A stretch of DNA of 64,000 bases from NCBI RefSeq assembly GCF_000715075.1, contig NC_134095.1:11022722-11086721 (forward strand), read 5' to 3'. The first letter of the stretch is position 1, and each line of letters starts with the position of its first letter. Shown here piece after piece: positions 1 to 40,768 of this stretch. A model generated the notes under the pieces. It worked only from the letters and a program-made list of their open reading frames with translations, was not told where the DNA came from and made no database searches. Position numbers and translations under genes: made by a program. This stretch comes from Nicotiana tabacum (Eukaryota > Streptophyta > Magnoliopsida > Solanales > Solanaceae).

Positions 1-2045
1 ATTTCAAGAAGGTCGGAGGGGGTAGTTTAGGAATTGTACATTTGTAATTGTTTATTTGAAGCATGGGGACAAAATGAAATGGGGTGGGTTGTGATATGAT
101 TATTTAATATAAAGGGGGGACAAGATTTAATTTAAAGGGGGAATCTTGTATTATTTTAAATGAAGCATGGGGGACAAAATATAATGGGGTGGTGTGATAT
201 GTTTATTTAATGTAATGGGGATGAGTGGAAAGATAATGGGTTGGGTAGAGAAAAAGTATGGATTTTAATTAATTGAAAGGTTTATGGGATGGGTTATAAG
301 AAGAAGTCTTGAACACAAGACAAGATAGACAACAGAAAGAACAGATAAGAGAAAAATACACAGATACGAGAGAGAGAAACAAATCTGAAAATAAGAGAGA
401 GAAAAGAGCTGAACATTTAAGAGATAAAAAATTCCGAAAAATATTTAAGCTTTCAAATAAAAAAAAACTAAAAAAAACATTCTGCTTTCTTTGTTTGAAA
501 TCAGAATTAATTGTTGTTTCATCAAAGCTGGAAGCTTTTTTTTTGTTTTGGGGATTACTACTCCACCGGTCTGTTACTGGGTTGTTACTGTTGCTGGGCT
601 ATTGTTGCTGTGTTGTACTGATTTTACTGCTGCTGCTGATTCTCATATTCATTTTCTTTTGCTTCCAATATCAGGTACACAACTGAAAAGCTGGTTATTA
701 TAATCCGAAATATGAAGCGTGAATACATATGAAGAATGAAAATTTGAAGTTTTAATTTCGTTTTTTTTTCTTTGTTCCTTTTGTTGATTGTATTTAAGCT
801 ATTTCATGAATTACTAAATAATAACTGGAATAAGAAAATAATATCATAAGTTAGTCTGTAATAAATCGGTTCGGCAAAATAGGTTAATTCACTAGTTATG
901 AAGGCTTCAAGATTATAGGTTGATCATGAACAAGTAGCTAAATTTAGCTAAGACACGATTTTAAATTAAACATCGTAAATTAGCATTAAGGCATGACTTG
1001 AGCTTAAGCAATATTAGAAGAACGTTTAAGTCTAATAAACTTTCTAATAAGCTTTAGTAATTATGGTTAAATTTAGTTTCAAATGATTGTGAATAATTAA
1101 TCTCAATAATATTTTTTTAAAATAACAATGCTGAGTTTTAATCTAGCTATATTTGTTTATTTTGAATATTAGTTGTTGAATTTTTATTTAATTTATAATT
1201 TTCGAAATTAAGAATAAAATTCCTTTTTCATCAATATTTTTATTAACCAAGCAATTAGCGTGTCATGTTTTCTTAAATAATAATAATAAAAAAAACGTAA
1301 TTAATTAGGATTTTCTTTATTCATTTTAGAGACTAATTTTAAATAGCAAAATGTAGTCGCTTTAAGATTTATCCATTTAGGAAAATAAATGAGATGAGCC
1401 TCGCTTAATAAAATGTATAGATTGCGGGGCCCTCAATAAATGTACATTTAATTGCTTAGAATTAAGGAGGAGTCGTTTTAGCAAATTTCACGGTCCTACC
1501 CCAAAGTAATAAATCGCTAATTGCTTTAGGCGCGATATAATAATAATACATTCTTAAACACGGGTATGCATTTATGCGACCCAAATCCAAATCCCAAAAC
1601 ATTGAATAAAAATACGTTCCGGATCGTGGATGCATTTTATGTGACCCAATCCAAAGACATGTTTTTAAACGATGTTCACATTCTTTAAAAAATATAATAA
1701 TGTAAGCGGTAAAAAGATAAAACTTGCACATGAGTCCATATTTGTATAAAATCAGATAATCAAGCCAGATATAACAGTTGAGCGACCGTACTAGAACCAC
1801 AGAACTCGGGAATGCCTAACACCTTTCTCCCGGGTTAACAGAATTCCTTATCCGGATTTCTGGTGCGCAGACTGTAATACAGAGTCATTCTTTTCCTCGA
1901 TTCGGGATTAAAATAGGTGACTTGGGACACCCTAAATCTCCCAAGTGGCGACTCTGAAATAAAGAAATAAATCCCGTTTCGACTGTCCTTTAATTGGAAA
2001 AAACTCCCACGCACCCTCGCGGGAGCGGAAAAAGGAGGTGTGACA
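1..2045 (+). repeat. TE-A 5' LTR, 3' half (Ogre/Tat-type)
   Basis: This stretch is repeated almost base for base at about 12719-14755, so both are LTRs of one element. The window opens inside the LTR, so its first ~2.14 kb is not visible. The end is ...GGAGGTGTGACA at 2034-2045, directly before a primer-binding site. By eye the two LTR copies differ at only about 20-25 sites plus small indels over 2 kb, so the insertion is young. Open frames here, including a minus-strand one at 1462-1800 present in both LTRs, are shared only because the LTRs are near-identical, and I do not call them genes. Confidence 0.9.
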
Positions 2046-2049
2046 GCTC

Positions 2050-2079
2050 TGGCGACTCTGCTGGGGAACGAACCCAGAA
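2050..2079 (+). other. TE-A primer-binding site, tRNA-Arg
   Basis: TGGCGACTCTGCTGGGGA, starting 4 nt after the LTR, is complementary to the 3' end of plant tRNA-Arg. Complementarity runs on into the T arm (GAACCCAG...), about 28 of 30 positions against the tRNA-Arg sequence as I recall it. An arginine tRNA primer is characteristic of the Ogre/Tat branch of Ty3 elements. Confidence 0.85.
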
Positions 2080-3642: not shown

Positions 3643-3706
3643 GAACTACGCGGGTATGATTCTCACCGGATGTGAGATACGTAGGCAACCCTCATCGGGT
3701 TCAACC
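3643..3706 (+). other. Double-hairpin motif, copy A
   Basis: Hairpin 1: outer stem CTACG (3646-3650) with CGTAG (3680-3684); inner stem TCTCAC (3661-3666) with GTGAGA (3672-3677), loop CGGAT. Hairpin 2: AACCC (3687-3691) with GGGTT (3697-3701), loop TCATC, then CAACC. The conserved linker TGATTC precedes and overlaps the inner stem. All pairs are Watson-Crick. Confidence 0.75.
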
Positions 3707-4491
3707 CCCCTTTATTGCTAAAATAGCCAAAAACCAATAAATAAATAAAAAATGTGTCAAAATTTTAATTTTTGTCATAAATAAGTCGGGCGGTGTCCAA
3801 CCTCCCCATTTGCTAAAAAATAGCCAAAAAAATATATGTCAAATTTTAATTTCGTCATAAAGAAGTCGGGTGACGTTGTTTTATCAAGACATAGCCGAAT
3901 GTTCCCGAAAAGGACGCCGGAAGGCTGACTTTTCATAAACAGCCACCTTTTGGGTCATGTTTAGGATTTTTGGTCCAGTTGACCCACACAGCCTTAAAAA
4001 ATCTTCGTCCCCGAGGCGCTGAAGGGCCGTGTTTGCAACACCCGGTTTTTATTGTAATTTGAAAAAAAAAACACAAAAACAAAGAGTCAATGGTCAGGTG
4101 AATACCGTTTGGATATTTGGTCAAAATAAGCCGAGCCAGCTTCGGCCGCGTCTTAAACCGTTCTTGCCGAAATAGCCTTAGAATATCTTTCAGTTGTCGA
4201 AAGGCTATTTTCGTAAAAGAATGAACAAGTGTGTAAAGTGTCAAAATAATCCTCCCCGGCCTCAAAATTCATGTGAGATTTGGAAGGGGCCACATTTGCA
4301 AAAATAGCCGTTTGGTTGCATTTGTCAAATGGAGAAAGGAAGCTGGCCGTTTGTTTTGGAGTTTGTAAAACTTTTGATTATAATATGTGGGTCATTTGAT
4401 TTTCAAGTTTGTAGGTCATTTTTAAACCTTTGAAACCCAATATGAAAATCGAAAAAAAAAATGATTAGTATTGCTTATCTTTTATTGGTCC

Positions 4492-4555
4492 GAACTACGC
4501 AAGGTCTGATTCATGCGGGGTCATGATACGTAGGCAATCTCTATAAGATTCGACC
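4492..4555 (+). other. Double-hairpin motif, copy B
   Basis: Hairpin 1: CTACG (4495-4499) with CGTAG (4529-4533); inner stem TCATG (4511-4515) with CATGA (4522-4526). Hairpin 2: AATCT (4536-4540) with AGATT (4546-4550), loop CTATA, then CGACC. The inner stem and hairpin 2 differ in sequence from copy A but pair perfectly. Confidence 0.75.
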
Positions 4556-4714
4556 ACAACAAATAATGAAAAAAATGAAAAAAAAAATCGAAAAAGGGGA
4601 AAAAGATGTTGCTAGTAATAAGAACCGACTGAGTCCATTCTAACATGTTTTATTTTGAATTGTGAAGAAAGTTGAGTTGGTCGGTTTGTTCAGAGGGTTC
4701 AACAAGAGTCTACT

Positions 4715-6208
4715 GTGCCGGGAAAAAATAGAATACTAAAACAGCAAATGACCGGAGTGTGTCAAGCATGGGCCAGTGGGCAAGGACAGCCTCGTCATGA
4801 GTCACAATTTGCGACACAACAAGAGCAGTACCACTCTCCTAAGTACCACCCGTACTCGTTAGATCTTCCTTCAAAGATTGAAGAGCCTGCCCGAAAAATG
4901 GTACAAGAAGAAATGACCCAAAGGGTGAAAAACTTAGAACAATGGTTGAAAAACAGGCAAGGGTTGTCTGGCCAAAAGAGTGTTGCCTTCAAAGATCTAT
5001 GTATGTTCCCCGATGTCCACTTGCCGCCTGGTTTCAAAACTCCCAAATTTGAAAAGTACGATGGACATGGAGATCCCATTGCCCACCTGAAAAGGTATTG
5101 CAATCAACTGAGAGGTGCGGGAAGAAATGAAGAATTATTGATGGCTTATTTTGTGGAAAGCCTTACGGGAGTAGCTTCCGAATGGTTTATGGATCAAGAC
5201 ACGTCTCGCTGGTATGTCTAGGACGACATGGCACAAGCATTTGTCAAACAGTTCCAATACAGCATCGACATTGCCCCAGACCGCATTTCCCTTTCAAACC
5301 TGAAGAAGAAACCAAGTGAAAGTTTCAGGGAATATGCTATTAAATGGAGAGAGCAAGCAGCTCGAGTTAAGCCACCCATGGATGACCACGAGCTAATAAC
5401 TGTCTTCCTTCAAGCGCAAGAGCCAGATTACTTTCAGAACATGATGTCCGCAGTTGGCAAATCCTTCTCGGAAGCAATCAAAATGGGAGAAATAATAGAG
5501 AATGGTCTTAAGACAGGAAAAATTATGAGTCAAGCAGTTTTTAAAGCTGCAACTCACGCTGTCCGGGTTGAGTCTGATAATTTTTGCGACACAAATGAGA
5601 AGATTGAAGAAATCATGATGACATCAGGGTCAAGAAGAGGTCCTAGGAGAACATCTCGAAGGTATGAGTAGCCTCCTAAAGTTATCTATGAATCCCCTGA
5701 GCAATATTATCCCCCTCAGAACCCACAACACTCTATTTTTCCACCTCAGTATGTTGCCCGGCCACCAAAACGCCCCAGAAGGCGAGCACGAGCATCACAA
5801 AATCTCCAGAAGCCTCCACATAACTTTCAGGTGCCCTATAACCCACATCCAAGCCAGAAGTATAAAGGGGAACGAAGGTTGAAAGATAATTTTACACTAA
5901 TAGGAGAGTCCTATGAAAGCTTATTTGAGAGGTTAATGCATCACGACATGATTGCATCTATTCCTCCAAATCATCTGGACACACGTGCAAGAAGCTTTGA
6001 CCCTTCTAAAAGGTGTGAATACCATTCCAATGCCTAGGGGCACAATGTTGAAAGTTTTCGGGATTTGAAAAAAGAAATAGAAAGGATGATCCAGGAAAAT
6101 CTGATTGTGATCCAAGGTAATGACACCCAGAATATTGCACAGAATCCTTTACCTGCACATCATGATGCACACTTTATGGGGAGGATGCCTGGTAACATGG
6201 GATTTTAG
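4715..6208 (+). pseudogene. gag: TE-A gag, broken by three in-frame stops
   Basis: One reading frame encodes a Tat-type Gag, the capsid/nucleocapsid polyprotein that would package the element RNA. The core has the typical run PPGFKTPKFEKYDGHGDPIAHL (N-terminal part, ~5025-5090), then a capsid-like helical region with WREQAARVKPPM and the later CEYHSNA...GHNVE segment. The frame is interrupted by TAG at 5219 (in a W-Y-V-[W]-D-D context, so probably TGG to TAG), TAG at 5669, and TAG at 6035 (probably CAG to TAG). It ends with TAG at 6206-6208. There is no good ATG at the front: the first open codon is a GTG at 4715 and the first in-frame ATG is about 4748. No protease, RT or integrase follows before the 3' LTR. 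Confidence 0.8.
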
Positions 6209-8869
6209 AGTCATCCCGGAAAGCCGCTAACTGATGATAATGATATCGAAGTTGGAAATGGTCTGGACAATACTGCAAAGCCCAGTGGCTAAAGATGCCA
6301 ACTTTGATAAAATGGGAGGACGCTCCGTTCCTTGGTTAGCAAGAGAGAAGCTTGTGGTGGCTTATTTTGTTGTCATTTCTGTTGTCCGGATTATTCTTAG
6401 GGTTGTAATCCGAATATTGTCTTGAGTCAAACCTTCTTATCTTTCCATTTTGTCATATCAGTTTGTTTAAGTTTTGTCAAGGCTGTGTTAGGATTTTATT
6501 CTGCTTGTTTTGTTTGTTTTATTATTCAAACCATTTCGCCAGTAGTCTAATACAAAAGCCGGTCTTTTATTATTTCCAGTTTTCTTTTGATTAGTCCTTT
6601 TATCATTTTTATTCAAGCGCCGATTCTAGTGACATGACATGCGCACACAGTTTGGGCCTAGTCTATAAAGTTAATCATAAAACCCTGGGAAGGTGATCAA
6701 AGCATTTAAAGGAAGTAAGAACGGTTTGAGATTATTTGAAGCCCGAGTCATGTGGAACTGGGGCAAGTAAAACATAAAGAAAACCGTTAAATGCAAGATT
6801 CGCCAAATTGGCATGAGGGTCGTGCATGAGTGTGAGAGTGTCGCCCAGCAGTGCTTTAGAAATGACAAAATGAAAAAGCAAGTGGTTAACATAATTGTCA
6901 AGACCAGCACCGTCGGAAGAGACTATAAATCTATGTTCAATTATGTTGTTTGCACTTGGCATGTTTTGAAGACTGGAACGACGAAGGCATTTTGTTCTGC
7001 TACCTAAACACTTTATCCTTCGTTACCCCTTTTGAGACTTATTTTATTTTCTTTCATACCCCTCGTTCGGAATCAATAGCAACGACTAGGAAATACAAGC
7101 CTAGAAGGTAAAGAAAAAAGAAAGAAAAAAAAAGAAAAAAAAACAACAAAAAATGAGAAAAAAATGATAACAAAAAAAAAAGTCAGAAGAAAACAGAGGA
7201 ATTGGGAACTACGTTTGACCTGATTCCTCAAAGAGGATACGTAGGCGCCTCACGGCTCGGTCATAGGGTGCATAGTGTGCATAATGTGCATGGTGTGCAT
7301 AGTGTAACAAAAAATTAAAAAAAAATATAAATAATAAATAAATAATCCCCAAGCAAGAAACTGGGGCAAAGGTTGCGCTTGTTGTAAACAAATATGATTT
7401 CGAAGGTTGTAATTTTGAACCCCAAATTGATTTGTTTTTGAGCCTTTAATACCCTTTCTTTCTAAGCCTATCCAAAAAACCCACATTACGGTCCAAAGAA
7501 AGACCTTCTGACCAGTCTGCAGAAGATGCCAAGTCAGACAAATGAGAGTCTTACCGGCGAACATAACATTCTGTTCCACAGCAGAAAGGACTCTAATCTC
7601 CAGCAGAGAGAGTCATACCGGCAACACTCCAAATCCCCAGCTGGAAAGTGATATAAATGAGAGAGTCTTATCGGTGAAAATCTTCACGGACACCATAAGG
7701 CGATGAAAGCTGAGAGAAAAACCCAAAATGAGAGAGGCTTGATAGTGAAAACCCTTCGGGCACTACAAGTCGAATAAGATTAAGAATCAGATGGGGAATT
7801 GCCAATTGAAGATCTTGAAAGATGATTGACAGCAGAGGATAGGACACATATGCATGTCATGACCATTAGAGTCGGTGTCTGCGTTTGATAGTTTTTTTTA
7901 TTTATAGTTTCTTTCGTTAAAGAGTCATCTTTTTTCTTTTGTCTTTTATTCTGTTACTTTTTATCTTTCTCCTTTCATAGAAAATTCCCCAGTAGAGTCT
8001 GTTTGGTCAGAACCAGTGGGAAATGACTTCAAAATAGGCCATCAGCTTTCCAAGATAAGATCTGACTAGTACATACAAATGGTATAGTCAGCAAGGAACA
8101 AGCGCGAGGCCAGTGTCAAAAAAAAAGATATCCCCAGCAAAAGGGAATTGACAAAAAGATCAACGAGTGTCAAGAGGGATATCCCCAGCAGAAAAGGATT
8201 ATCCCCAGCAAATAATATCGTCCCTTATGGAATGCAAAGCAAGGAAGGAGAAAGGGAAAAGTCATCCCAGTGGAGTATCACAACCAACTACCACGCTTTA
8301 AGCTAACAAATTTTGTTTGAGTTAAAACAGGTAAAGGAAATGACATTGATGTCGGAAATGCATGCCACAAGAAAGATTGTCAAACTGGGGCAGAAAATTT
8401 TCTTTTCAGTTAGAAAATTTTCTGGAAAATCAGGTACCCATTTGGGGAAGAATAAAGATAGCACCAAGGAAGTGGTCTTTGAACCAGGGTTTCCCCCAAC
8501 ATAATAAGTTTCCAATGGAGGAAATTGATCCCCAACAGACAGAACCAAAGAGATGAAATTGGTATATAGAAAAAGCAAAAGCCATTGTCATCCCCAGCAG
8601 CTTCCAGAAGAATGAAGCATCGATTTGAAGGGATAAAATTCCCCAGCAGCGTTATCCTCAACAACGTTATCCCAAAAAGATAACACTTATATCCCCAACA
8701 GTGTTAAAAAAATTGAATTTGAATTTGAAGGAGGGGAAGAAAGAAGACTCCCGCAGTGGTATTATCCCCAGCAAGTAAGAACAAAGCAGCGCAAAGGAAA
8801 AAGAAAAGAAAAGAAGAGATTGCAAAGGTAAGTTTCTCAAATCATTGATCTTTACATTTTTCTCCTAGG
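6209..8869 (+). other. TE-A non-coding internal region in the place of pol
   Basis: No coding frame in this 2.66 kb resembles any pol domain. It contains a short tandem stretch of TGCATAxTG words (about 7262-7304), copy C of the double-hairpin motif, and many copies of the word TCCCCAGC (for example 7637, 8134, 8185, 8204, 8592, 8641, 8765), which is complementary to the primer-binding site. Confidence 0.65.
7206..7264 (+). other. Double-hairpin motif, copy C
   Basis: Hairpin 1: CTACGT (7209-7214) with ACGTAG (7239-7244), a six-pair outer stem; inner stem TCCTC (7225-7229) with GAGGA (7233-7237), loop AAA. Hairpin 2: GCGCC (7245-7249) with GGCTC (7254-7258), one mismatch, loop TCAC, then GGTCA. 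The linker is CTGATTC, as in copies B and D. Confidence 0.7.
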
Positions 8870-9465
8870 ATAAAAAGTCCTAGTATGATGAATTTCCCTC
8901 CCGAGTCAAAATCTTGGTCTGATGAAATTGTTCTCCCAAGATAAAATCTTAGTCGGATGAATCTTTCTCCTAAGATCACAACAAAATGGACCTAGTCTGA
9001 CGATTTATCTCCTAGAGTCAAAATCTTGGTCTGATGAAATTGTTCTCCCAAGATAAAATCTTAGTCGGATGAATCTTTCTCCTAAGATCACAACAAATGG
9101 ACCTAGTCTGACGATTTATCTCCTAGAGTCAAAATCTTGGTCTGATGAAATTTTTCTCCCAAGATAAAATCTTAGTCGGATGAATCTTTCTCCTAAGATC
9201 ACAACAAAATGGACCTAGTCTGACGATTTATCTCCTAGAGTCAAAATCTTGGTCTGATGAAATTGTTCTCCCAAGATAAAATCTTAGTCAGATAAATCTT
9301 TCTCCTAAGATCACAACAAATGGACCTAGTCTGACGATTTATCTCCTAGAGTCAAAATCTTGATCTGATGAAATTTTTCTCCCAAGATAAAATCTTAGTC
9401 AGATGAATCTTTCTCCTAAGATAAGATATCAAATCCTAGTCTGATGAATTTTCTCCTAGGATAAT
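8870..9465 (+). repeat. Tandem repeat array, 111/112-bp unit
   Basis: Units start with GAGTCAAAATCTTG at 8903, 9015, 9126, 9238 and 9349. Spacings alternate 112, 111, 112, 111 because ACAACAAAATGG and ACAACAAATGG alternate, giving a ~223-bp higher-order dimer. Each unit is itself three diverged ~37-bp sub-units of the form CTCCxAAGAT...TAGTCxGATGAAT. No protein frame runs through it. Confidence 0.85.
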
Positions 9466-9499
9466 AATTATAAAAAAAAGTTTGAATTGAAAAAAAAAT

Positions 9500-9900
9500 G
9501 GTTGAAGTCAGGAGCCCCCCTGAAGAATAGAATGGCGATTTATTGGTTGAAATCAGGAGCCCGCCTGAAGAGAGGAATGGCGATTATTTTCAAAGTTGTT
9601 GTTGAAGTCAGAAGCCCGCCTGAAGAGAGGAAAGACGTTTTTTTTAAAAAAAAAAGTTGTTGAAATCTTGCCAACCTAAAGAAAGGAATGGCGATGTATG
9701 GTTTGAAGTCAGGAGCCCGCCTGAAGAGAGGAATGGCGATTATTTTCAAAGTTGTTGTCAGGAGCCCGCCTGAAGAGAGGAAAGGCATTTTTAAAAGTTG
9801 TTGAAATCTTGCCAACCTAAAGAAAGGAATGGCAATGTATTGGTTGAAGTCAGGAGCCCGCCTGAAGAGAGGAATGACGTTTATTTCTAAAGTTGTTATT
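9500..9900 (+). repeat. Tandem repeat array, GAGCCCGCCTGAAGAGAGG type
   Basis: About eight units of 43-55 bp. Type 1 is GTCAGGAGCCCGCCTGAAG with GAGAGGAATGGCG. Type 2, at about 9660 and 9800, is a diverged form, ATCTTGCCAACCTAAAG with AAAGGAATGGC. The order 1-1-1-2-1-1-2-1 suggests a partly duplicated multi-unit block. Confidence 0.8.
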
Positions 9901-10082
9901 GATGTTGGGAGCCCGCCCAGATAACAGAGGTATACATTTCAGTCTTTATATTTCAAGCGTCGAAGTTGGGAGCCCGCCCAGACAACAGAGGCATACATTG
10001 CAGTCTTTACATTTCAAGTCTTTAATTTTCAAGTATTGAAGTTGGGAGCCCGCCCAGATAACAGAGGCATACATTTCAAGAT
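9901..10082 (+). repeat. Tandem repeat array, GGGAGCCCGCCCAGA type
   Basis: Three units, each beginning GTTGGGAGCCCGCCCAGAxA followed by ACAGAGGxATACATT, at about 9905, 9965 and 10040. They share the word GGAGCCCGCC with the preceding array, so the two probably derive from one ancestral repeat. Confidence 0.75.
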
Positions 10083-10397
10083 CAAGTCAGAGGACAATAA
10101 AACAGAGGGTTACAATAGGAATCCCCAGCGGGAAACAATAAAAATCCCCAGCACCGGGAAACAGAAGGTTGCAACAAGAGGTCACAGTACAAACTCAAGT
10201 ATATGTGTCAAAAGAAGAAAAGCACCGGAAGAAATGCAAGCAGACAAGGAAGCAAGGCAACAAAAACAAATTGTACTCTAGCCTAGCTTCTTGTTCTTTT
10301 TAAGCACAGTGTAACAAGGAGATCGGTAAGCAGTAGTAATAGCATGCAACAACAGTGACAATGCAGTCCCACGGTAGTCCCAGCTACCAAAATTTCC

Positions 10398-10467
10398 CGA
10401 ACTACATTGACCTGATTCCTGTTTAGCCCAGGATATGTAGGAAACCTTTGAAGCAAAGGTTCGGTCA
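10398..10467 (+). other. Double-hairpin motif, copy D
   Basis: Hairpin 1: CTACAT (10402-10407) with ATGTAG (10435-10440), a compensatory change from CTACGT/ACGTAG in copy C; inner stem TCCTG (10417-10421) with CAGGA (10429-10433). Hairpin 2: AACCTTTG (10443-10450) with CAAAGGTT (10454-10461), eight perfect pairs, loop AAG, then CGGTCA. It lies about 100 nt upstream of the polypurine tract. Confidence 0.8.
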
Positions 10468-10560
10468 AATCTTTTTCAAAAAAATGCTTCAACGGAGTAC
10501 TCGGATGGGCAAAAATCGCTCGCTTTATCTTTGCACGAAAACCCTTCATGTCTTCGGGCA

Positions 10561-10572
10561 AAGAGGGGCAGC
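10561..10572 (+). other. TE-A polypurine tract
   Basis: AAGAGGGGCAGC lies immediately before the TGTAAGCACG that starts the 3' LTR. This is the expected plus-strand primer position and it sets the LTR start. Confidence 0.75.
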
Positions 10573-13500
10573 TGTAAGCACGTGAGTTTTGCCCTATATG
10601 AGAATTACTCCCAAAAAATTCAAAAATAAAATGATTTTTCTTTGGTGTGCAATTTTGTGATATTTTGAATAATTATTTGTATTTGTCTGTGCATGTTTAT
10701 TTGCTAAATTAATAAAAAATACAAAAATATGTCGCATTTTGCATGTAGGATTTAATTCTAAAATTGTTAGTAATTAAATTTGTTTTACAAAAATTAAAAA
10801 TTACAAAAATAGGCATCGTTTGCATTTTTAGCATTTAATGTCCAAATATACAATTTTATGCTTAATTATTACTTAATTGTGCGTTAATTGTTATTGGGAG
10901 TTAATTTGCACTTTTATAACTTAATTTAGTTCTTAATAATAGTTTAAGTATTTTTATAATTTAGTTTTAGAAAAATAAAAGAAGAAAAGAGAGCGAAAAT
11001 ATAAAGAAAGTCGGAATTGGGCCTTTTCTTCAATTTCAAGCCACAGGCCCAAAAAATGGTCCAATCTTCCCTACGACCCAGTCCATTTCGAACTGGGTCA
11101 ACCCAGTCCATAACCCAAAAGACCCAAACCCCTTTGTCTTACATTTTACAAAAACAAAACAAAAATTAAAAGAAGAAAACCCTAAAAACATTAAACCAAT
11201 CTGCCCCCACCCTTCCTATCTTCTTCTTCTTCCTCAAGCTTCTCCACCTCCCATGGCTTCCCTTTGCCTTCAACCTCAAGAAGTCATGACTACACACACA
11301 CACGCACGTCACCCTCACGACCCCGGCTCAACTAAACTACCCCAGCCCTATCCGCCATTGAAGCTCGTCAAGCTCAAAGCTTGCTCGACTATGGCTGCTT
11401 CCCCGCTGCGTTTCAGCTGCTTTTGCTTACGTCCAAACACGCCCCCCAGTTGTTGCTGCTTCATGGTTCAAACTTCAAGCCCTGAGCTGCCTCATCCAGC
11501 TTCATGCCTCGTCGTTCATGGCTGAACATCCATCGCAACAACCCAATTGCTGCTGCGTTGTTCTTCTTCGTCTCCGTCACGGCCAAGATCACGCAGCAAC
11601 TGCTGCTGCTCACGTTTCTGCCATGGACGAGCAAGCTTTGATGCTGCCATGGCCAGCTGCGGACTGCTGCTCCTTTCCCTCCGTCTTCTTCGTTTGGTCG
11701 AGGGTTTTTCGTCGAGTCAAGATCTTGTACGTCGTGAGTTCATCGTCAAGTTCGTTGTTTGTTTGGTCGTTGTTCGTCGTTTCGATCCGGTTAGTAGTTT
11801 TTGAGTTTTATTTTTGTCCATATTTTTGTTTGATATTTTCCGGATCCAAAATCGTTAAATGATTTAATCCTTGTTTTGTTCGTTGATTCATCGTTGAAAT
11901 AATTTTCTAGTGTGTTCATGTTGTTTGTTAAATTAATTTTCAGATTTTAAAATAGAAGTTTAATTAGTTGTTTTCATATTCATTTTATGTTTGTATTATT
12001 GTTTAAATGAATATTTGTTAGTTTGAGGTTTGTTAGATTCAAATTGAAATTTAATTAACTATTTCTTCAATTTGTTTCTTGGGTTTATGTATTGTTAGAA
12101 ATTGTTAATATTGTTAAGTTCAAGTTTAAGTTCATAATTGTTTCTTCGTCGATCTTGTTATTTGTTTAAAGAATTTAGTTGTGTTAGAGAAATATGTTGT
12201 TTTAATCGTTTAAATCCATCATGTTTGTTGTTTAAAATAGATTTAATTCATGTTCATACTTTGTTTGATTGTTCTTGAATCCGAAATTTGTATAGCTTGA
12301 TTTCTTGTTTACCATTTGTGATTATTTCTTGAATTTGTCTCATAAAGTTTAATATAGGAATTGTTGGTTGTAATGTTGTTAGAATTGATTTTAAGTTCAA
12401 TATGATTGAAGTTAGAAATCTAAATATACTTGTTTGTTGTAGTTGTTGAATCCGAAAATAGGATTGTTTGTTGCTAAAATATCGTTCAATCAAATTTTAG
12501 TTGTTCTTTGTTGTTCAATTTGTGTTCATGTGATTTGTTGTTAAAATCGTGTTCATGTGATATTGTTGTTATGATGTTCATCCGTGTTCATATTGTTGTT
12601 TGAACATTGTTAGAAATTGATCATATAGTCTATATTTTGGTTAAGTTTGATTAATTGATGTGTTATAGCTGATGGGTAGTTTGGTAAATTTGTAGTACGT
12701 TCAGGGGTAGTTTGGTAATTTCAAGAAGGTCGGAGGGGGTAGTTTAGGAATTGTACATTTGTAATTGTTTATTTGAAGCATGGGGACAAAATGAAATGGG
12801 GTGGGTTGTGATATGATTATTTAATATAAAGGGGGGACAAGATTTAATTTAAAGGGGGAATCTTGTATTATTTTAAATGAAGCATGGGGGACAAAATATA
12901 ATGGGGTGGTGTGATATGTTTATTTAATGTAATGGGGATGAGTGGAAAGATAATGGGTTGGGTAGAGAAAAAGTATGGATTTTAATTAATTGAAAGGTTT
13001 ATGGAATGGGTTATAAGAAGAAGTCTTGAACACAAGACAAGATAGACAACAGAAAGAACAGATAAGAGAAAAATACACAGATACGAGAGAGAGAAACAAA
13101 TCTGAAAATAAGAGAGAGAAAAGAGCTGAACATTTAAGAGATAAAAAATTCCGAAAAATATTTAAGCTTTCAAATAAAAAAAAACTAAAAAAAACATTCT
13201 GCTTTCTTTGTTTGAAATCAGAATTAATTGTTGTTTCATCAAAGCTGGAAGCTTTTTTTTTTTTGGGGGATTACTACTCCACCGGTCTGTTACTGGGTTG
13301 TTACTGTTGCTGGGCTATTGTTGCTGTGTTGTACTGATTTTACTGCTGCTGCTGATTCTCATATTCATTTTCTTTTGCTTCCAATATCAGGTACACAACT
13401 GAAAAGCTTGTAATCCGAAATATGAAGCGTGAATACATATGAAGAATGAAAATTTGAAGTTTTAATTTCGTTTTTTTTTCTTTGTTCCTTTTGTTGATTG

Positions 13501-14755
13501 TATTTAAGCTATTTCATGAATTACTAAATAATAACTGGAATAAGAAAATAATATCATAAGTTAGTCTGTAATAAATCGGTTCGGCAAAATAGGTTAATTC
13601 ACTAGTTATGAAGGCTTCAAGATTATAGGTTGATCATGAACAAGTAGCTAAATTTAGCTAAGACACGATTTTAAATTAAACATCGTAAATTAGCATTAAG
13701 GCATGACTTGAGCTTAAGCAATATTAGAAGAACGTTTAAGTCTAATAAACTTTCTAATAAGCTTTAGTAATTATGGTTAAATTTAGTTTCAAATGATTGT
13801 GAATAATTAATCTCAATAATATTTTTTTAAAAATAACAATGCTGAGTTTTAATCTAGCTATATTTGTTTATTTTGAATATTAGTTGTTGAATTTTTATTT
13901 AATTTATAATTTTCGAAATTAAGAATAAAATTCATTTTTCATCAATATTTTTATTAACCAAGCAATTAGCGTGTCATGTTTTCTTAAATAATAATAATAA
14001 AAAAAACATAATTAATTAGGATTTTCTTTATTCATTTTAGAGACTAATTTTAAATAGCAAAACGTAGTCGCTTTAAGATTTATCCATTTAGGAAAATAAA
14101 TGAGATGAGCCTCGTTTAATAAAATGTATAGATTGCGGGGCCCTCAATAAATGTACATTTAATTGCTTATAATTAAGGAGGAGTCGTTTTAGCAAATTTC
14201 ACGGCCCTACCCCAAAGTAATAAATCGCTAATTGCTTTAGGCGCGATATAATAATAATACATTCTTAAACAGGGGTATGCATTTATGCGACCCAAATCCA
14301 AATCCCAAAACATTGAATAAAAATACGTTCCGGATCGTGGATGCATTTTATGTGACCCAATCCAAAGACATGTTTTTAAACGATGTTCACATTCTTTAAA
14401 AAATATAATAATGTAAGCGGTAAAAAGATAAAACTTGCACATGAGTCCATATTTGTATAAAATCAGATAATCAAGCCAGATATAACAGTTGAGCGACCGT
14501 GCTAGAACCACGGAACTCGGGAATGCCTAACACCTTCTCCCTGGTTAACAGAATTCCTTATCCGGATTTCTGGTGCGCAGACTGTAATACAGAGTCATTC
14601 TTTTCCTTGATTCGGGATTAAAATAGGTGACTTGGGACACCCTAAATCTCCCAAGTGGTGACTCTGAAATAAAGAAATAAATCCCGTTTCGACTGTCCTT
14701 TAATTGGAAAAAACTCCCACACACCCCCGCGGGGGCGAAAAAGGGAGGTGTGACA
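10573..14755 (+). repeat. TE-A 3' LTR, complete (4.18 kb)
   Basis: It starts TGTAAGCACG after the polypurine tract and ends ...GTGTGACA at 14755. Its last ~2.04 kb matches 1-2045. An A/T-rich stretch with a TATAA-like word at about 10954 could hold the promoter; that is inference. The LTR 5' part contains a pyrimidine-rich leader and an ATG in a fair context at 11253. The minus-strand 112-codon frame at 14173-14511 mirrors the one in the 5' LTR. The 5 bp to its right is ATAAT; the matching left target site lies outside the window. Confidence 0.85.
11253..11525 (+). other. Possible short ORF in TE-A LTR
   Basis: A 90-codon ATG frame follows a CT-rich leader (CCTCCCATGG context). The predicted protein is rich in Cys, Pro, His and Ser and resembles no family I know. 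The matching part of the 5' LTR is outside the window, so conservation cannot be tested. It may be an upstream ORF in the element transcript or chance. Confidence 0.2.
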
Positions 14756-21678: not shown

Positions 21679-24600
21679 TGTAACGACCCGAACCGTCGTT
21701 TCCTGTATTTTCGTCCCGTATTCCCCGTTAAATGCTTATTCATGTTTCAATATGTGTACTTGGTGAATTTGAGTCAATTCGGATCGAGTTTGGTATGAAA
21801 TGGGACAATTAGCCTCTTTAAGGAAGAATTAGTTTGGAAAAGTCAACCAGACGTTGACTTGTGAGTTAGAGGGCTCGGAATTAAATTCCGATAATTCGGT
21901 TAGTTTCGGGGGATGATTTAAGGCATAGGAGAGCAATCGGAATTAATTTTGGAGGTTCGGTGAAGAAATTAGCTCATTTTGGCGAAGTTAGTATTTTGGC
22001 GATTTCCGGTTGATAGGTGAAATTTTGATCCGACGGTCGGAATGGAATTCCGAGAATTTCTGTAGCTTCGTTATGCCATTTTGGATATGTGTGCAAAATT
22101 TCAAGTCATTCGGACATATTTTGGTCGAGTTTTGATCGAAAGCGCGTTTTGGAAGTTTTAAAGAAACTTAGACTTGAATTCGGTGTAATTCGATAATTTT
22201 GGTATTAGTCGAGGTGTTTTGATAATTGGAAGAAGTTTGAATAATATTATAAGATGTATTGGTATTTTTAGTTGAGGTCCCGAGGACCTCGGGATGATTT
22301 CGGATGGCTAACGGGAACTTTTGAAGTTGGAAATTTCATAATAGACGAAAGTTGTAAATGAGTGCGCACAAGGCCTCATTTTGAACGATACTATCTCTCG
22401 TTATATAAGGAGTTGTGTGAGCTACAACCTATTAAATTAAAGTTCTTTGAGTCTACTTTCCAAAGCAATAAACCGTTCGTCATTTGGAAGTGTATACAGG
22501 AAGTTATGACCATTTAATGGTCAGGTGTCAGAGCGCGCGAAGTCGCGCATTTCGCGCGTCTGAGGCAGAATGCTCAGCAAAACGCGCGAACAAACGCGCG
22601 ACCAACGCACAAACTACGCGACTGAAGGTTTTTTAAGTACTCTAAAGACCGGAAATGAGAGGAATTGAGTCATTCTCAAGCCTAGGGCTTCCCCAATACC
22701 CCCAATTCGACCAAGGCACACAATTGCACTCCTAAGGTAAGATTTTTGGAGTATTTTGAGTTGATTACTACTCCCAAACACTTATATTAACATGGATTGA
22801 TCTTAAAAATCCTTAGATTTTCAAGAAATTCCTTCAAGAACTCAAAGAAGGGTTTTGCAAGATTTCTTCCAAAAGGTAAATCCTACACCTTAGACTCACA
22901 TATATGGATATATTATGGAAATATGAGTATGAGTCAAGTATTACAACTTATTGTATGGTGGTTGGAAGCCATAAATTCCCTATTTAAATACATGAACATG
23001 GTAGGGATTTAGAGGTGTTTATTTGATGGAATTTTTGTTGGTTTGGGTGTGAATGGTTGATCACACATGTGATGTTAGGAGTATAAATTGTTAAAGAATA
23101 ATAGTGTGATGAATTGTTGGTTAATGGTGATAGTTGGAGGAACCAATGCTATAGTTAAGAGGTGTAAATATTTATACCTACAAGATGTTTGATAATATGC
23201 CTAAATGGCATAATTTATGGGATCTAGTACTAATATTGGCCATATTGAGTGTTATATTGTAGATTGAAGTTACATAACTGTATGGGATCATTATAGTATC
23301 ATTAAGGGGCGAATTTCAGATATGTATGGTTAAAACCCCGTCTTTTAGAAATCGAACTTCATCGAGGTTTGTGTGATTTTTGGCAGATTCGTCACACGAG
23401 GAGGCCAATTAGAGAGGCAAGGGCATAGCGAGCTAGAGGTGAGTAATAGATGTAAATGCTGTTCTGAGGGTTTGAAACCCCAGACTTTCACATCATAATG
23501 CTATATTGAGGCGTGACACGCACTCCATGGCGAGTGCGGGGTCGGATACTACTGGGGATTGTGACTTGGTCCACCTCGTGTGATGTTTATACTATACTGG
23601 TGATTGATACACATACTTCATTAATATTACTGGGCTTGATGCCATGTTTGGGGCCTTATGCCGATTTGTAAAATCCTTCGAGGATTGATATTACTGCTTA
23701 GCATGATTTGCATATCATTTAATTTCAGTCCAAGGTTTTAAATGCTATTTTGTAAACTCAGCCATAATTCTAAGTGTTGAAAACTTAAATAATATTTTTA
23801 AATGTATTCCGGGCTGGGAACTTCAGTTTTGTAAATGCCAAAGGGGCTTATTATATTATTTTCTGGACTGATTATAAAGTGACTTGAAACAGTGGTAACA
23901 ATGACACTGTGTGATATACTTGACACAGTGGTAACAATGACACTGTGTGATATACTTGAAATAGTGGTAACAATGACACTGGATGATATACTTGAACAGT
24001 GGTAACAATGGCATTGTATGATATAAATTGGTCAGGTAACAATGGCTGACCGGTCAGGTAACAATGACTGACCAAGATATTGCGCTTGGGATGTAGGAGC
24101 CCCTCCGGAGTCTGTACACACCCCCAGTGAGCGTCGTCGACGATAAATAAATATGGATGGCTCAGGCTGCACGCCGCAATGGGTACTGGAATGTACCATC
24201 ATATGCATTGCATTGCATTCATGTATTTGCCTTTATACTGTTGTTTAGCTGTTCAGTTCCATATGTTGCTGTATATTTAGATTTTAGCTTACCTTGTGTA
24301 TTTACTGGATTTTCTTATCTTCGGACTGTAGTTATTTTTATTACTCACTGAGTTGGAGTACTCATATTACTCCCTGCACCATGTGTGCAGGTACATGTAT
24401 TCCTGAGGCATAGAGCGAGTTTTCTGCTGTTCAGTTTTCATCGGAGTTATCGAGGTAGCTGCATGGCGTTCGCAGCCCCATTTTCTCCCTTATCTTTGTT
24501 ATTTATGATAATTCCAGACTTTGTAAAATATTAGTAAACTCTGTAGTAGCTCATTACCCGATTTCGGGCTGAGTTGGGATGGTTATCCTTATTCTATCAC

Positions 24601-24748
24601 GTTTATTTCGCATTTAAGATTATATTGCCCATGATTTAGACTTATTCTTGCTAAGTAATTATAAAGAGATGTACTGTTTTGTTGATTGGCTAGCCTTGTA
24701 CTCACGAGAGGCGCCATCACGACCGGGTTGGGATTTTGGGTCGTGACA
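21679..24748 (+). repeat. TE-B 5' LTR (Tekay-type chromovirus)
   Basis: It starts TGTAACGACC and ends GTCGTGACA, and is repeated at 29269-32389 with a few percent difference by eye. It contains CG-rich GCGCGCGAA words (about 22530-22625), a 36-bp tandem repeat in four copies (about 23885-24030), and a paired GGTCAGGTAACAATG repeat (24034-24075). The 71-codon frame at 22797-23012, conserved in both LTRs, has no recognisable features. Confidence 0.9.
23885..24030 (+). repeat. 36-bp tandem repeat in TE-B 5' LTR, 4 copies
   Basis: The unit contains CAGTGGTAACAATGACACTG then TGTGATATACTTG. Four copies here; the 3' LTR at about 31487-31668 has five, so one unit was gained or lost after the element inserted. 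Confidence 0.85.
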
Positions 24749-24751
24749 AGT

Positions 24752-24763
24752 TGGTATCAGAGC
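24752..24763 (+). other. TE-B primer-binding site, initiator tRNA-Met
   Basis: TGGTATCAGAGC, three bases after the LTR, is the standard complement of the initiator methionine tRNA 3' end. Confidence 0.9.
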
Positions 24764-26027
24764 CAGGTTACTTGGTCTCACGAGTAATGAGCCGATTTAG
24801 TAGAGTCTCGCGGATCGGTACAGAGACGTCTGTATTTATCCCCGAGAGGCTGCAGAACCTTTAGGAAAAACTTCATATTCTTGAATTCTTATTGTGCGTC
24901 CTTGATTCAGCTTGAAAAAGTAACTTTTACAATTCCTTCCACGTATTCGTATACGCGAACGAATGCGCATTATTAGATGTGCCTTGATGGCTTGTAATTC
25001 CCCGATCGAAGGGCGAGACGTGGTCGTTTTGAGTTTGATGTTAGGCCAGTCTGGAGGACTTGAGGCCGGATCTTTGCCAATGGCTTTAGCACCGAGGTGC
25101 TTATTGTATGAGCAAGTATTTTGAACTTATATGTTCGGTATTGCCTCTATTAGTGGGAATCATGGCTGGATAGCTACGTGAGAAGTATGATAGTACTGCG
25201 ATATGTATCTATATGACTTGGAAGTGATGAGGAAGGTCTACTGGATGAGAGATGAACTATTGAGTGTGTGATTTCCATTGTGATAGGATGTGTAGTCCCA
25301 AGTTATGGGTGCGTGAAGGATCTTTTTATGTCTCCTATTTGAAGTGAAGTAAATTTCATGTTACGGTATGAGTTTAGACTCAGGAAGATTAAGTGATTGT
25401 GTAATGTGTATGGCAGTGGAAGGTATACAAAAAATGTTAACTAAAGGTAAAGCTAGTGGGTAATTGGCTTATGAGGGGAATCTATTTGTCATACTAGTTA
25501 GATAAGTCTGGGAGCTGAGATCGCTTCTGTAAATGTATTATGACGAAATCGTTAAGTCAAGGAGACCACCTTGAAGGTATAAAACATTAAAGAAAGAATA
25601 TGTTCTTACTCGGTTGAATAGCCCAATAATGGAGGATTGAAAGGTATTTTCTATGTGTTATGATTTAAATAGGTGCAACACATGTCCATGTATCAATTTT
25701 GATAGTATAATACATGTAATATTGATATTAATGTAATTGATATACGTTGTGATGCTTTGTCAAGTTGTGGATGTGTTGTTATGATGGTTTTGGTGATTCT
25801 CTGGCAGGTGGATAGGCCCAATTACAAAGGAGACTCTGCCGAAATTTTTGAAAAATTTGGGACTTAGTAAAAATTTGGTCCCCTAGAGAGTAGTCTTAAC
25901 TATTAGGTGAGTGAATGCAAGAAAACGCGGAAGAGTTAAAATTTTAGATGAATTGTGTTTCCACAAAATTATGAAGGAGTGAGTTTAATCTCACTATGGT
26001 ATTATCTCAGTCTGCCACATAGATGCC
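24764..26027 (+). other. TE-B leader; gag missing
   Basis: About 1.26 kb lies where a Tekay element would carry its leader and a gag of more than 1 kb. I see no capsid-like frame and no CCHC zinc knuckle. Gag has been deleted or replaced by non-coding sequence. Confidence 0.6.
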
Positions 26028-28216
26028 TCTGTCTTATTTGATCCGGGATCCACCTATTCTTATGTGTCTTCATATTTTTCCCGTCATTTGAGTATGCCCC
26101 GGGAGTCTCTTACTTTACTTGTTCATGTGTCTACCCCGGTGGGCGATACTATTGTTGTGGACCGTGTATATCGGTCATGTGTTGTGATTATTGGGGGTCT
26201 TGAGACCCGAGTTGATCTACTGCTGTTGAGCATGGTAGATTTTGATATTATTCTGGGCATGGATTGGTTATCTCCATATCATGTTATTCTAGACTGTCAT
26301 GCTAAGACAGTTACTTTGGCTATTCCGGGTGTTCCGAGGATCGAGTGGCGTGGCATGACTGATTATGACTCTAGCAGAGTAATTTCTTTCTTGAAAGCCC
26401 AGCGTATGATTGGGAAGGGTTATCTATCATATCTGGCTTTTGTGCGGGATGTTGGAGCTGAGACTCTTAGTATTGATTCTATCCCTGTTGTGAGGGACTT
26501 TCCTGATGTATTTCCTGCAGACCTGTCGGGCATGCCGCCGGACAGGGATATTGATTTTGGCATTGACTTAGTGCCGAACACTCAGCCCATTTCTATTCCG
26601 CCATATCGTATGGCACCAGTAGAGCTGAAAGAATTGAAGGAGCAACTTCAGGAACTCTTAGATAAGGGGTTCATTCGGCCTAGCGTGTCCCCGTGGGGTG
26701 CACCTATTTTATTTGTGAAGAAGAAAGATGGCACAATGAGAATGTGCATTGATTATAGGCAGTTGAATAAGGTAACAGTGAAGAACAAGTATCATTTGCC
26801 TCGCATTGATGACTTATTTGATCAGCTTCAGGGAGCGAGGGTATTTTCTAAGATTGATCTGCGTTCGGGCTATCACCAGTTGAAAATCAGGGAGTCGGAT
26901 ATTCCCAAGACTGCTTTCAGGACTAGATATGGTCACTATGAATTTTTGGTTATGTCTTTCGTGCTGACCAATGCCCCAGCAGCGTTCATGCATTTGATGA
27001 ACAGTGTATTTCAGCCTTATCTGGATGCATTTGTTATTGTATTCATTGATGATATCCTGGTGTATTCGCGTAGCCAGGAGGAGCATGCCCAACATTTGCG
27101 TGTGGTGTTGCAGAGATTGAGAGAGAAGAAGGTTTATGCAAAATTCTCCAAATGTGAATTTTAGCTAAGTTCTGTGGCATTTTTGGGACACATAGTATCC
27201 AGCGAGGGTATACAGGTTGATCCAAGGAAGATAGAAGCAGTGTAGAGTTGGTCTAGACCATCCTCATTCACAGAGATTCGGAGTCTTCTTGGGCTAGCAG
27301 GCTATTATCGCCGATTTGTTCGGGGGTTTTCTTCTATTACATCGCCTTTGACCAAGTTGACTCAGAAAGGTGCCCCATTTGTATGGTCCGGCGAGTGTGA
27401 GGAGAGCTTTCAGAAGCTCAAAGCACTTCTGACCACAGCTCCAGTGTTGGTGTTACCATCATCTACAGGTTCATACACGGTATATTGTGATACTTCTAGA
27501 GTTGGGATTGGTTGTGTGCTAATGCAGAAGGGTAGAGTTATTGTTTATGCTTCTCGTCAGTTGAAGCCCCATGAGAAGAACTACCCTGTTCATGATTTGG
27601 AGTGGCTGATATAGTTCATGCCTTAAAAATTTGGAGGCACTATTTATATGGCGTATCTTGTGAGGTTTTCACTGATCATCGTTGTCTTCAACATTTATTT
27701 AAACAAAAAGATCTTAATTTGAGGCAGCGGAGATGGCTTGAGTTACTTAAAGACTATGATATTACCATTCTATATCATCCGGGAAAGGCCAATGTAGTGG
27801 CCGATGCATTGAGCCGAAAGGCAGTCAGTATGGGGAGTTTGGCTTGCATCCCAGTTGGGGAGAGGCCTCTTGCAGTTGATGTTCAAACCTTGGCCAATCA
27901 GTTGGTGCGGTTAGATATTTCTGAGCCTAGCCGGGTATTGGCTAGTGTGGTTTCTCGATCTTCCTTATATGATCGCATCAGAGAGCACCAGTATGATGAT
28001 CCACATTTGATTGTCCTTAAGGACAGAGTTCAGCATGATAATGCCAAAGATGTGACTATAGGTGATGATGGCGTATTGAGGATGCAAGGCCGTATTTGTG
28101 TGCCCGATGTTGATGGGCTTAGAGATTTGATTCTTGAGGAGTCCCACAGTTCGCGGTATTCCATCCATCCGGGTGTTGTTCGTGAGTGGCCTTCCTCGGA
28201 CTTTGAAGAATTTTGA
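26028..28216 (+). pseudogene. pol: TE-B protease, reverse transcriptase and RNase H, broken
   Basis: Domains in order: aspartic protease with active site [12 protein letters not shown] (~26042) and the later ILGMDWLS; reverse transcriptase from VRDFPDVF (~26492), with the RT palm motif FIDDILVYS (~27040); RNase H around [10 protein letters not shown] (~27483) and YPVHDLE. Breaks: TAG at ~27162 (context KCEF-stop-LSS, probably TGG to TAG), TAG at ~27243 (context IEAV-stop-SW, probably CAG to TAG), and a one-base loss at ~27601 that shifts frame before [15 protein letters not shown]. The frame ends after HPG where the front of integrase is deleted. It would have copied the element RNA in a cytoplasmic particle; it cannot now make a full polyprotein. 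Confidence 0.85.
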
Positions 28217-28724
28217 TTCGATTTGGGTCGTTACGGATAGGCTGACCAATTTAGTGCATTTCATTCCGGTGTGTACCACATATTCTGCAGAGCGGCTGGC
28301 TAGGATCTTTATTCAGGAGATTGTGCGGTTGCATGGTGTTCCAGTTACTATTATTTCGGATAGAGGTACTCAGTTCACTTCTCAGTTTTGGAGGACTTTT
28401 CAGCACGAGTTGGGCACTCAGGTGGAGTTGAGTTCAGCATTTCATCCTCAGACGGACGGACAGTCCGAGCGTACTATTCAGATATTGGAGGATATGTTGC
28501 GTGCCTGCGTGATTGATTTTGGAGGCTCTTGGGTTGAATTTTTACCACTTGCAGAGTTTGCCTACAACAACAGCTATCAGTCCAGTATTCAGATGGCACC
28601 GTATGAGGCCTTATATGGGAGGCGGTGTAGAACTCCAATGGGTTGGTTTGAGCCCGGTGACGCTAGGTTGTTGGGGACAGATTTGGTCCAGGATGCCTTA
28701 GAAAAGGTGAAGGTAATTTAGTAA
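28190..28724 (+). pseudogene. TE-B integrase catalytic core, zinc finger deleted
   Basis: The text goes straight from the RNase H/integrase linker ([11 protein letters not shown]) to [11 protein letters not shown], skipping the HHCC zinc-binding domain and the start of the core (about 60 residues, ~190 bp), with a frame change at the junction near 28185. The three catalytic acidic residues remain: D in VVTDRLTN, D in IISDRGTQF, and E in DGQSERTIQ. The core ends with TAG TAA at 28719-28724. Without the zinc finger it should not integrate DNA. Confidence 0.8.
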
Positions 28725-29258: not shown

Positions 29259-29268
29259 TTGGGGAGAA
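29259..29268 (+). other. TE-B polypurine tract
   Basis: TTGGGGAGAA directly precedes the TGTAACGACC of the 3' LTR. Confidence 0.75.
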
Positions 29269-32389: not shown

Positions 32390-32430
32390 AGTTGGTATCA
32401 GAGCCTAGGTTACTTGGTCTCACGAGTCAT
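32390..32430 (+). mobile_element. Second TE-B primer site and leader stub
   Basis: The bases after the 3' LTR (AGTTGGTATCAGAGCC, then AGGTTACTTGGTCTCACGAG) match those after the 5' LTR (24749 on) apart from an extra T and one change. So this LTR is, or was, also the 5' LTR of another copy; the match stops at ~32430. Confidence 0.8.
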
Positions 32431-32432
32431 GT

Positions 32433-40699: not shown

Positions 40700-40702
40700 A
40701 AT

Positions 40703-40722: not shown

Positions 40723-40768
40723 TGATAATCTTTCCTTTTAAACTACATCTTATCTATTAGGCGTCACC

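Follow-up and report, generated by a model that had tools for sequence, protein, structure and literature searches.

The window, meaning the whole 64-kb stretch of DNA analysed here, carries near its start an LTR retrotransposon, TE-A, in which four copies (A to D) of an RNA motif with helices P1 to P4 are distributed around a gag reading frame. The features are as follows.

1..2045, + strand: 5' LTR of TE-A, truncated at the window start (98.6% match to 12718-14755)
2050..2067, + strand: primer binding site, read from the sequence; its complement ends in CCA
3643..3707, + strand: motif copy A, upstream of the lost ORF1; P1 3646-3650/3680-3684, P2 3661-3666/3672-3677, P3 3687-3691/3697-3701, P4 3652-3655/3704-3707 with one A-A mismatch at the pair adjoining UGAU
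4492..4555, + strand: motif copy B, upstream of gag; P1 4495-4499/4529-4533, P2 4511-4515/4522-4526, P3 4536-4540/4546-4550, P4 GGTC 4503-4506/GACC 4552-4555
4715..6292, + strand: gag reading frame, interrupted by TAG at 5219, 5669, 6035 and 6206, with TAA at 6290
7206..7263, + strand: motif copy C, downstream of gag and, in full-size relatives, of pol; P1 7209-7214/7239-7244, P2 7225-7229/7233-7237, P3 7247-7249/7254-7256, P4 GACC 7217-7220/GGTC 7259-7262
10399..10468, + strand: motif copy D, a short distance upstream of the polypurine tract; P1 10402-10407/10435-10440, P2 10417-10421/10429-10433, P3 10443-10450/10454-10461, P4 TGACC 10408-10412/GGTCA 10463-10467
10560..10572, + strand: polypurine tract before the 3' LTR, read from the sequence
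10573..14755, + strand: 3' LTR of TE-A (TG...CA), its start read from the sequence

A Retrotrans_gag domain is found in the piece 5228-5668. As had been proposed, the element lacks pol, and the motif copies have been kept while coding regions were lost. By likeness to the Ogre primer binding site described in the available part of PMC9289625, that of TE-A would be of the tRNA-Arg type. Motif order, primer binding site, LTR size (4.18 kb) and gag assign this gag-only element to the Ogre lineage.

The original prediction of four copies stood, with GAACTAC starting at 3643, 4492 and 7206, except that the fourth begins at 10399 and not at 10398. The outer stem, the inner stem and the second hairpin are all present as it gave them. 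A covariance model, the check it suggested, was built from 40 copies, window copies A, B and D among them, and recovers all four copies with E values from 2e-27 to 2e-16; these are its matches in the 64 kb, with no further copy up to E=1. The pattern GAACTACGN{3,10}TGATTC occurs three times in the window, against a mean of 0.00 in 100 shuffles, and copy D carries GAACTACA. Allowing one mismatch, the 10-mer GATACGTAGG is unremarkable alone (5 matches, a number reached by 5 of 100 shuffles). Simple chance is rejected by the shuffles, by the covariance-model search and by reversed-pattern controls in the genome, which gave 0. A known Rfam family was likewise rejected, as comparison of the window with 4,227 models gave no match to the motif up to E=1. 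The only Rfam matches in the window up to that value are LSU rRNA fragments at 52482-54515.

From 5' to 3', the motif consists of GAA, the P1 5' strand (CUACG), a short joiner, the P4 5' strand, UGAU and hairpin P2, followed by U(A), the P1 3' strand (CGUAG), GGCA or similar, hairpin P3, one or two bases and the P4 3' strand. The linkers had been described as fixed, which does not hold for the joiner between the outer stem and TGATTC: it varies, and does so in covariation with a site that follows the second hairpin. The two pair with each other, the joiner through its bases ahead of UGAU and the site directly downstream of the hairpin, and form a fourth helix, P4, that had been overlooked; the proposal of selected RNA structure is itself supported. 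Together with the outer stem P1, P4 forms an H-type pseudoknot, and we regard its selection as RNA structure as very likely.

Several lines of evidence bear on P4. It is paired in 94.4% of cells among 40 sequence-aligned copies and in 94.6% among 114 copies aligned with a covariance model that had no P4, and two-sided changes occur at all four of its pairs. Ranked by covariation, P4 is second of 1,779 antiparallel 4x4 windows, with inner P2 above it. Double changes on the same branch number 10 against 2.9 expected (p=0.0004), all from pair to pair. P4 of at least four contiguous pairs forms in 83% of cases with strands from the same copy and in 52% with strands from different copies, the latter figure remaining high because many copies share P4 letters. 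As pairing is preserved while letters change, the RNA signal is probably functional. On the sense strand, mismatches comprise 92 G.U against 34 A.C and 63 others (counted as cells, not events), and the G.U excess points to sense-strand RNA. The structure as a whole scores 0.439 in covariation, against 0.223 when shuffled and at most 0.118 when slid. Taken singly under a tree-aware null over all 3,160 column pairs, none of the P4 pairs reaches E<0.05 (E 0.24, 0.37, 2.6 and 33). In the same test a non-helix column pair, 62-64 in the P3 loop, passes with E 0.02. The nested part of the fold has no unusual stability (mean z -0.41, 112 copies).

These figures reflect how the copies were gathered. 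Nearly all were fetched by patterns fixing GAACTAC, TGATYC and GATA[CT]GTAGG, so that four P1 and two basal P2 pairs are invariant and count neither way. The sample covers the first 10 Mb of one contig, eight further loci (the window and TE-A relatives) and locus L001. Forty of the copies that model R1 later scored had served to build it, and for A3, 100 of 129 loci were searched, with 29 overlapping or similar loci omitted as judged by eye. The tree-aware, same-branch and stability tests used 112 of 114 copies, two cut-off rows having been dropped, and the tree for the all-pairs and same-branch tests was built from the same short alignment.

Ogre (Tat), the host family, is characterised by an ORF with a plant mobile domain (PMD), a G-patch, the order RT-RH-aRH-INT and large LTRs. 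In full-size Ogre-type elements, A precedes ORF1, B separates ORF1 from gag-pol, C follows pol and D stands a short way ahead of the polypurine tract; gag-only TE-A and other shorter derivatives, the latter judged by spacing, also keep the A-B-C-D order. Neither this siting at ORF boundaries nor the spread of the motif across the genome in Ogre-type elements had been recognised in the original prediction. Among the sampled places, the step from one copy to its neighbour is alphabetical in 72 of 80 cases and eight chains are exactly A-B-C-D; the input was 100 listed of 52,314 places with a G/C form of P1 and 43 of the 100 listed of 23,214 with an A/T form, both from the same 0.27-4.77 Mb, with classes A to D assigned simply from the letters of J1 and P2. 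As to context, a PMD ORF1 follows A, B lies between ORF1 and gag, an integrase ORF precedes C, and a polypurine tract follows D, where in 25 of 30 D loci a polypurine-like block starts 149-178 nt past the first base. A precedes the ORF1 frame by 145 and 370 nt at the two loci examined, and B lies 162-233 nt after an ORF end (4 loci) and C 175-539 nt after one (7 of 9 loci); A and D have no main-ORF stop just upstream.

Individual elements carry the domains of the lineage. The full-size A-B-C-D element C1:1766419-1779240 has RVT_1, RT_RNaseH and RVT_3 in order (L135), and its C locus, L037, has an integrase ORF before C; it thus has the additional RNase H after RT-RH, and the integrase further 3', of the Ogre lineage. 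At L020, the ORF1 upstream of gag matches PMD (3.1e-18) and DUF7745 (2.6e-24), giving the plant mobile domain of the lineage, and at L014 and L024, which hold the C-terminal part of ORF1 only, DUF7745 is barely above the cut-off and PMD under it. PMD is reported in 57% of Ogre elements, and splicing is reported to affect only part of Ogre transcripts (PMC6317226, available text).

Exact pattern matches in the 4.0-Gb host genome number 52,314 for the G/C form and 23,214 for the A/T form, and the mixed forms number 2,857 (G/T) and 2,381 (A/C). The change from G-C to A-T in the outer stem of D could be yielded by two CpG deaminations alone. Independent changes would give ~130 A/T copies against the 23,214 counted, so the genome-wide counts argue against independence. 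The A/T form looks to be largely one inherited class, of D type, and its copies are therefore not independent events.

One full motif lies ~50 nt after a hAT transposase ORF on a Sapindaceae-like contig that is chimeric with bacterial DNA. By eye, this copy has the four helices with other letters, and L001 hints at P4/P3 covariation across independent plant families. The hAT protein has no real match among the collected motif loci (tblastn; a lone 30-residue match, E 0.51). A viral-contig source was rejected, with motif patterns, the gag piece and the hAT protein each giving 0 in viral contigs; a looser motif pattern gave 3 loci there, which score at most 10.8 bits with the covariance model and are thus chance matches. 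It is conceivable, though less likely than not, that one pseudoknot RNA family, with >75,000 pattern-matching copies in one genome, serves unrelated plant transposons of both classes, Ogre LTR retrotransposons of the 4-Gb genome and a hAT DNA transposon of a Sapindaceae-like plant, as a module that governs RNA fate in transposons generally.

What might such a fold do? We infer, at about an even chance, that the motif is a cis-acting RNA-fate element whose main role is export or protection of unspliced, multi-ORF RNA. The fold would act in cis on transposon RNA as a docking site for an RNA-binding factor of the host or the element, and this factor would let the long unspliced multi-ORF RNA be exported and evade surveillance of long 3' UTRs, in a mode likened to the MusD MTE and IAP RTE export elements or to the Rous sarcoma virus RNA stability element (RSE). 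The same role would also fit a hAT transposase mRNA.

The MTE and RTE of murine LTR retrotransposons are likewise structured cis elements in retrotransposon RNA; according to the available text of PMC12786077, the MTE uses a pseudoknot and both support export of unspliced RNA. They are mammalian, whereas here a single compact fold recurs about four times around the ORFs. The RSE, located behind a stop codon, protects RNAs whose 3' UTRs are long (PMC5580461, available text); B, C and the hAT copy lie ~50-540 nt past ORF ends. Unlike the RSE, which is single and 155-400 nt long, A and D are not behind a main ORF. Pure decay protection would lead one to expect a preceding main-ORF stop at these two copies as well. 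An ENE or dnENE was rejected, with no U-rich internal loop seen by eye in the 40-copy alignment and no Rfam ENE match: an ENE requires U-rich internal loops clamping poly(A), whereas the motif is a pseudoknot without such loops. An ENE-type RNA structure aiding plant transposon RNA survival was reportedly described by Tycowski in 2016. For the ENE and double ENE triple helix, as in Evade, RNA structure is described as aiding plant transposon RNA survival in the available text of PMC12501189.

The main rival to export or protection, which we consider unlikely, is a packaging signal, with Gag recognising the fold in cis so that gag-only derivatives and genomic RNA enter particles and additional copies add affinity. 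The presence of the motif in gag-only TE-A and, by spacing, in shorter derivatives would fit this, as would the two copies in the 5' leader ahead of gag; however, one copy follows a hAT transposase ORF, DNA transposons form no particles, and copies also lie far 3' of gag, past pol, near the polypurine tract. Neither packaging nor initiation of translation would, as the sole role, account well for the hAT copy or for the copies beyond pol. An IRES or re-initiation element on a polycistronic RNA, with A serving ORF1 and B serving gag-pol, is improbable: it accords with A lying upstream of the ORF1 frame and B between ORF1 and gag-pol, but 5-8 AUGs separate B from the first in-frame gag ATG at the four full-size B loci examined, and no consistent sense ORF follows C and D. 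Slightly less probable again is an exonuclease-blocking (xrRNA-like) or other RNA-processing fold yielding subgenomic RNAs, suggested by a pseudoknot located at ORF boundaries; the topology of the motif is not known among plant-virus xrRNAs, which counts against it. Dimerisation via the P2 loops was rejected, for no palindromic kissing loops were seen by eye, leaving it without specific support. Most improbable is the absence of any RNA function, with old intra-element duplications whose paired changes arose by CpG deamination, palindrome correction and inheritance: the D change in P1 amounts to two CpG transitions, the copies share descent and the invariant P1 and P2 pairs were required by the search pattern, but P4, inner P2 and P3 covary outside that pattern, the P4 strands are tens of bases apart, G.U outnumbers A.C, both order and position are conserved, and the Sapindaceae-like copy keeps its helices.

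No earlier description of the motif was recognised among the literature matches listed, judged by title and abstract start, and the available text of PMC6317226 and PMC11963269 on Ogre makes no mention of a conserved RNA motif. According to the available part of a December 2025 review (PMC12786077), plant LTR-retrotransposon RNA export has not been directly studied. Few cis-acting RNA signals have been charted in plant LTR retrotransposons, and the motif provides a compact, countable and mutable handle on them. Point mutations in P1 and P4, with compensatory pairs, could separate export, decay, packaging and translation, and the motif may help locate Ogre fragments without coding sequence. If it is truly common to Class I and Class II elements, it would suggest that very different transposons exploit one and the same host factor.

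Tobacco copies A to D of the motif start at 3643, 4492, 7206 and 10399 in TE-A, the gag-only LTR retrotransposon probably of the Ogre lineage, and all four are present as originally predicted, with D placed at 10399. The window is locus G000:C16:11022722-11086721 of a 4.0-Gb genome in 700 contigs. The proposed covariance-model check was carried out with R1, a model built from 40 copies including A, B and D, and run with filters off on both strands of the 64 kb it recovers exactly A to D up to E=1. Since these are its only matches, the motif is absent at that threshold from the Retand-like element and the window's other elements. The features concerned are as follows.

1-2045: 5' LTR of TE-A, cut by the window edge
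2050-2067: PBS of TE-A
5219, 5669, 6035 and 6206: premature stops in TE-A gag, all TAG
10573-14755: 3' LTR of TE-A, its start read from the sequence
40150-51065: Retand-like element with RT, additional RNase H and integrase; LTRs 98.9% identical

The TE-A LTRs are 98.6% identical over their common part. Its gag frame, which has a Retrotrans_gag match, is broken by the four TAG stops, presumably compatible with deamination at CAG/TGG in methylated DNA, and no pol was found among ORFs of at least 120 aa. Between C and D lie tandem arrays (~112-bp units at 8879-9459, ~150-bp units at 9487-9900), which Tat elements often have in their 3' region. Elsewhere in the window, an element with a 96% LTR pair (21679-32431) is nested within an older one (15296-37001, flanking repeats 93% alike), the Retand-like element carries an antisense ORF with a Transposase_28 match below cut-off, and three adjoining pieces of bacterial-type LSU rRNA at 52482-54515 are probably organelle DNA inserted into the nuclear genome.

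The original prediction correctly drew the outer stem (P1), inner hairpin (P2) and second hairpin (P3) and missed a fourth helix, P4. In copy D, the loop TTGACC is complementary to GGTCAA immediately 3' of the second hairpin; the corresponding strands are GGGT/ACCC in A, GGTC/GACC in B and GACC/GGTC in C. Fetched copies show GGGTT/AACCC, GGGTC/GACCC, GATC/GATC, GACT/AGTC, TTAACC/GGTTAA, CGCGACC/GGTTGCG and others, and L001, a copy from another plant, has GGCCTT/AAGGCC. P1 encloses only one of the two P4 strands, which makes P1 and P4 an H-type pseudoknot; one of its loops contains hairpin P2, a second one hairpin P3.

There is good support for this structure and for selection on it; columns fixed by the fetch pattern count neither for nor against. 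When 40 copies are aligned with MAFFT on sequence alone, paired cells amount to 90.4% (P1), 92.7% (P2), 87.0% (P3) and 94.4% (P4), all four P4 pairs show two-sided changes, and covariation is 0.432, versus 0.223 when shuffled and at most 0.121 when slid. P4, although absent from the model, is 94.6% paired in 114 model-aligned copies and ranks second by covariation among 1,779 antiparallel 4x4 windows, behind the inner end of P2. Same-branch double changes on a FastTree tree exceed expectation for P2 (13 versus 4.1, p=0.0002; 12/13 pair-to-pair), P3 (9 versus 3.5, p=0.003; 7/9), P4 (10 versus 2.9, p=0.0004; 10/10) and the single free pair of P1 (2 versus 0.1, p=0.002). In a stricter test of all 3,160 column pairs against a tree-aware null (200 simulations), E is below 0.06 for three pairs of P2 and one each of P1 and P3, and is 0.02 for a single column pair outside the helices (62-64, in the P3 loop). 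The P4 pairs reach E = 0.24, 0.37, 2.6 and 33 there, or ~0.0015, 0.0023, 0.017 and 0.2 when scaled to the 20 proposed pairs. On the sense strand G.U outnumbers A.C (92 versus 34, alongside 63 mismatches of other kinds; these are counts of cells rather than of events), as expected if RNA of that strand is what folds. The nested helices alone show no unusual stability (mean z -0.41, 112 copies).

The two-sided P1 change in D, to which the original prediction gave weight, is weak evidence by itself because G-C to A-T amounts to two CpG transitions; the coupling it pointed to does hold genome-wide. Counts for this pair are 52,314 (G/C), 23,214 (A/T, against ~130 expected under independence), 2,857 (G/T) and 2,381 (A/C), and reversed-pattern controls gave 0 matches for each of the four forms. 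The A/T form looks to be mostly of the D class, so the counts indicate coupling rather than many independent events, and the near-equal single mutants look like decaying dead copies.

Among the matches listed within 0.27-4.77 Mb of one contig, 143 copies fall into 63 chains, of which eight read exactly A-B-C-D. Alphabetical order holds in 72 of 80 sense-order steps (the rest being five class repeats, two backward and one unclassed), and 80 of 91 neighbours at most 11 kb apart share a strand. A full-size A-B-C-D element, which encodes G-patch, then RT, RNase H and additional RNase H, with integrase before C, is of the Ogre lineage as described in PMC6317226. The frame after A, ORF1, matched DUF7745/PMD (plant mobile domain) in both loci tested (L020, L010). 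Four full-size B loci among those viewed with 3 kb of surrounding sequence (L014, L024, L033 and L036) show an ORF that stops 162-233 nt upstream of B and a gag frame that opens 294-300 nt past it. C is preceded in seven of nine loci by a sense ORF (150 aa or more) that ends 175-539 nt upstream, and this ORF was integrase in all five Pfam-tested loci (L015, L023, L025, L037, L038). The polypurine tract starts 149-178 nt after D's first base in 25 of 30 D loci. Spacing is ~2.4-2.8 kb (A-B) and 7.6-7.8 kb (B-C) in full-size elements, 0.6-1.5 and 1.3-5.7 kb in shorter chains, and 0.85 and 2.7 kb in TE-A. Shorter chains are defined by spacing, with ORF content read for TE-A and its relatives only; the A-B interval of these holds no sense ORF of 150 aa. 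Within classes, motif similarity is 0.65-0.90 (inflated by the fetch pattern) versus 0.12-0.79, mostly 0.3-0.6, for the flanks.

Outside this genome, L001 is the sole exact match in bacterial and archaeal assemblies, on a contig of a roe-deer-gut "Bacilli" MAG that joins bacterial-looking genes to plant-like DNA. The fetched contig locus reads as follows.

L134, 25-123 and 174-2144, minus strand: hAT transposase ORF, then full motif, then bacterial-looking genes

The ORF (at least 656 aa) has hAT transposase domains (Dimer_Tnp_hAT, 1.9e-21) and ends ~50 nt before the motif. Its protein's best relative is 97% identical. Named relatives come closest in Dipteronia (73% across 85% of the query) and Acer (73-74% across 32-41%), which makes a Sapindaceae plant eaten by the deer the probable source. 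Drawn by eye, L001 accommodates all four helices, in letters unlike those of this genome's copies; R1 scores it at 49.5 bits and misaligns P3. This single hAT-motif association may instead reflect chimeric assembly or nested insertion. The contig is itself a case of plant contamination inside a deposited bacterial genome.

As for function, we infer that the motif would act in cis on the transposon RNA, since shorter derivatives retain copies. RNA export or protection would fit better than packaging or translation initiation, given copies before, between and after ORFs and one in a hAT 3' region; translation initiation also has to contend with 5-8 AUGs between B and the gag start in all four loci examined. 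Needs for both export and protection would exist, as Ogre transcripts are only partially spliced, according to PMC6317226, and an RNA with ORF1 first would have a very long 3' UTR. Candidate precedents that may work alike are the MusD MTE/IAP RTE (PMC12786077) and the RSV RSE (PMC5580461). The ENE (PMC12501189) is excluded, the motif having no U-rich loops.

The motif has no Rfam match, and no paper describing it was found among the matches listed in open-licence literature. It is presented here as a new RNA family within a known kind, the cis-acting transposon RNA element; its repetition at ORF boundaries is unusual, as is its possible occurrence in different transposon classes.
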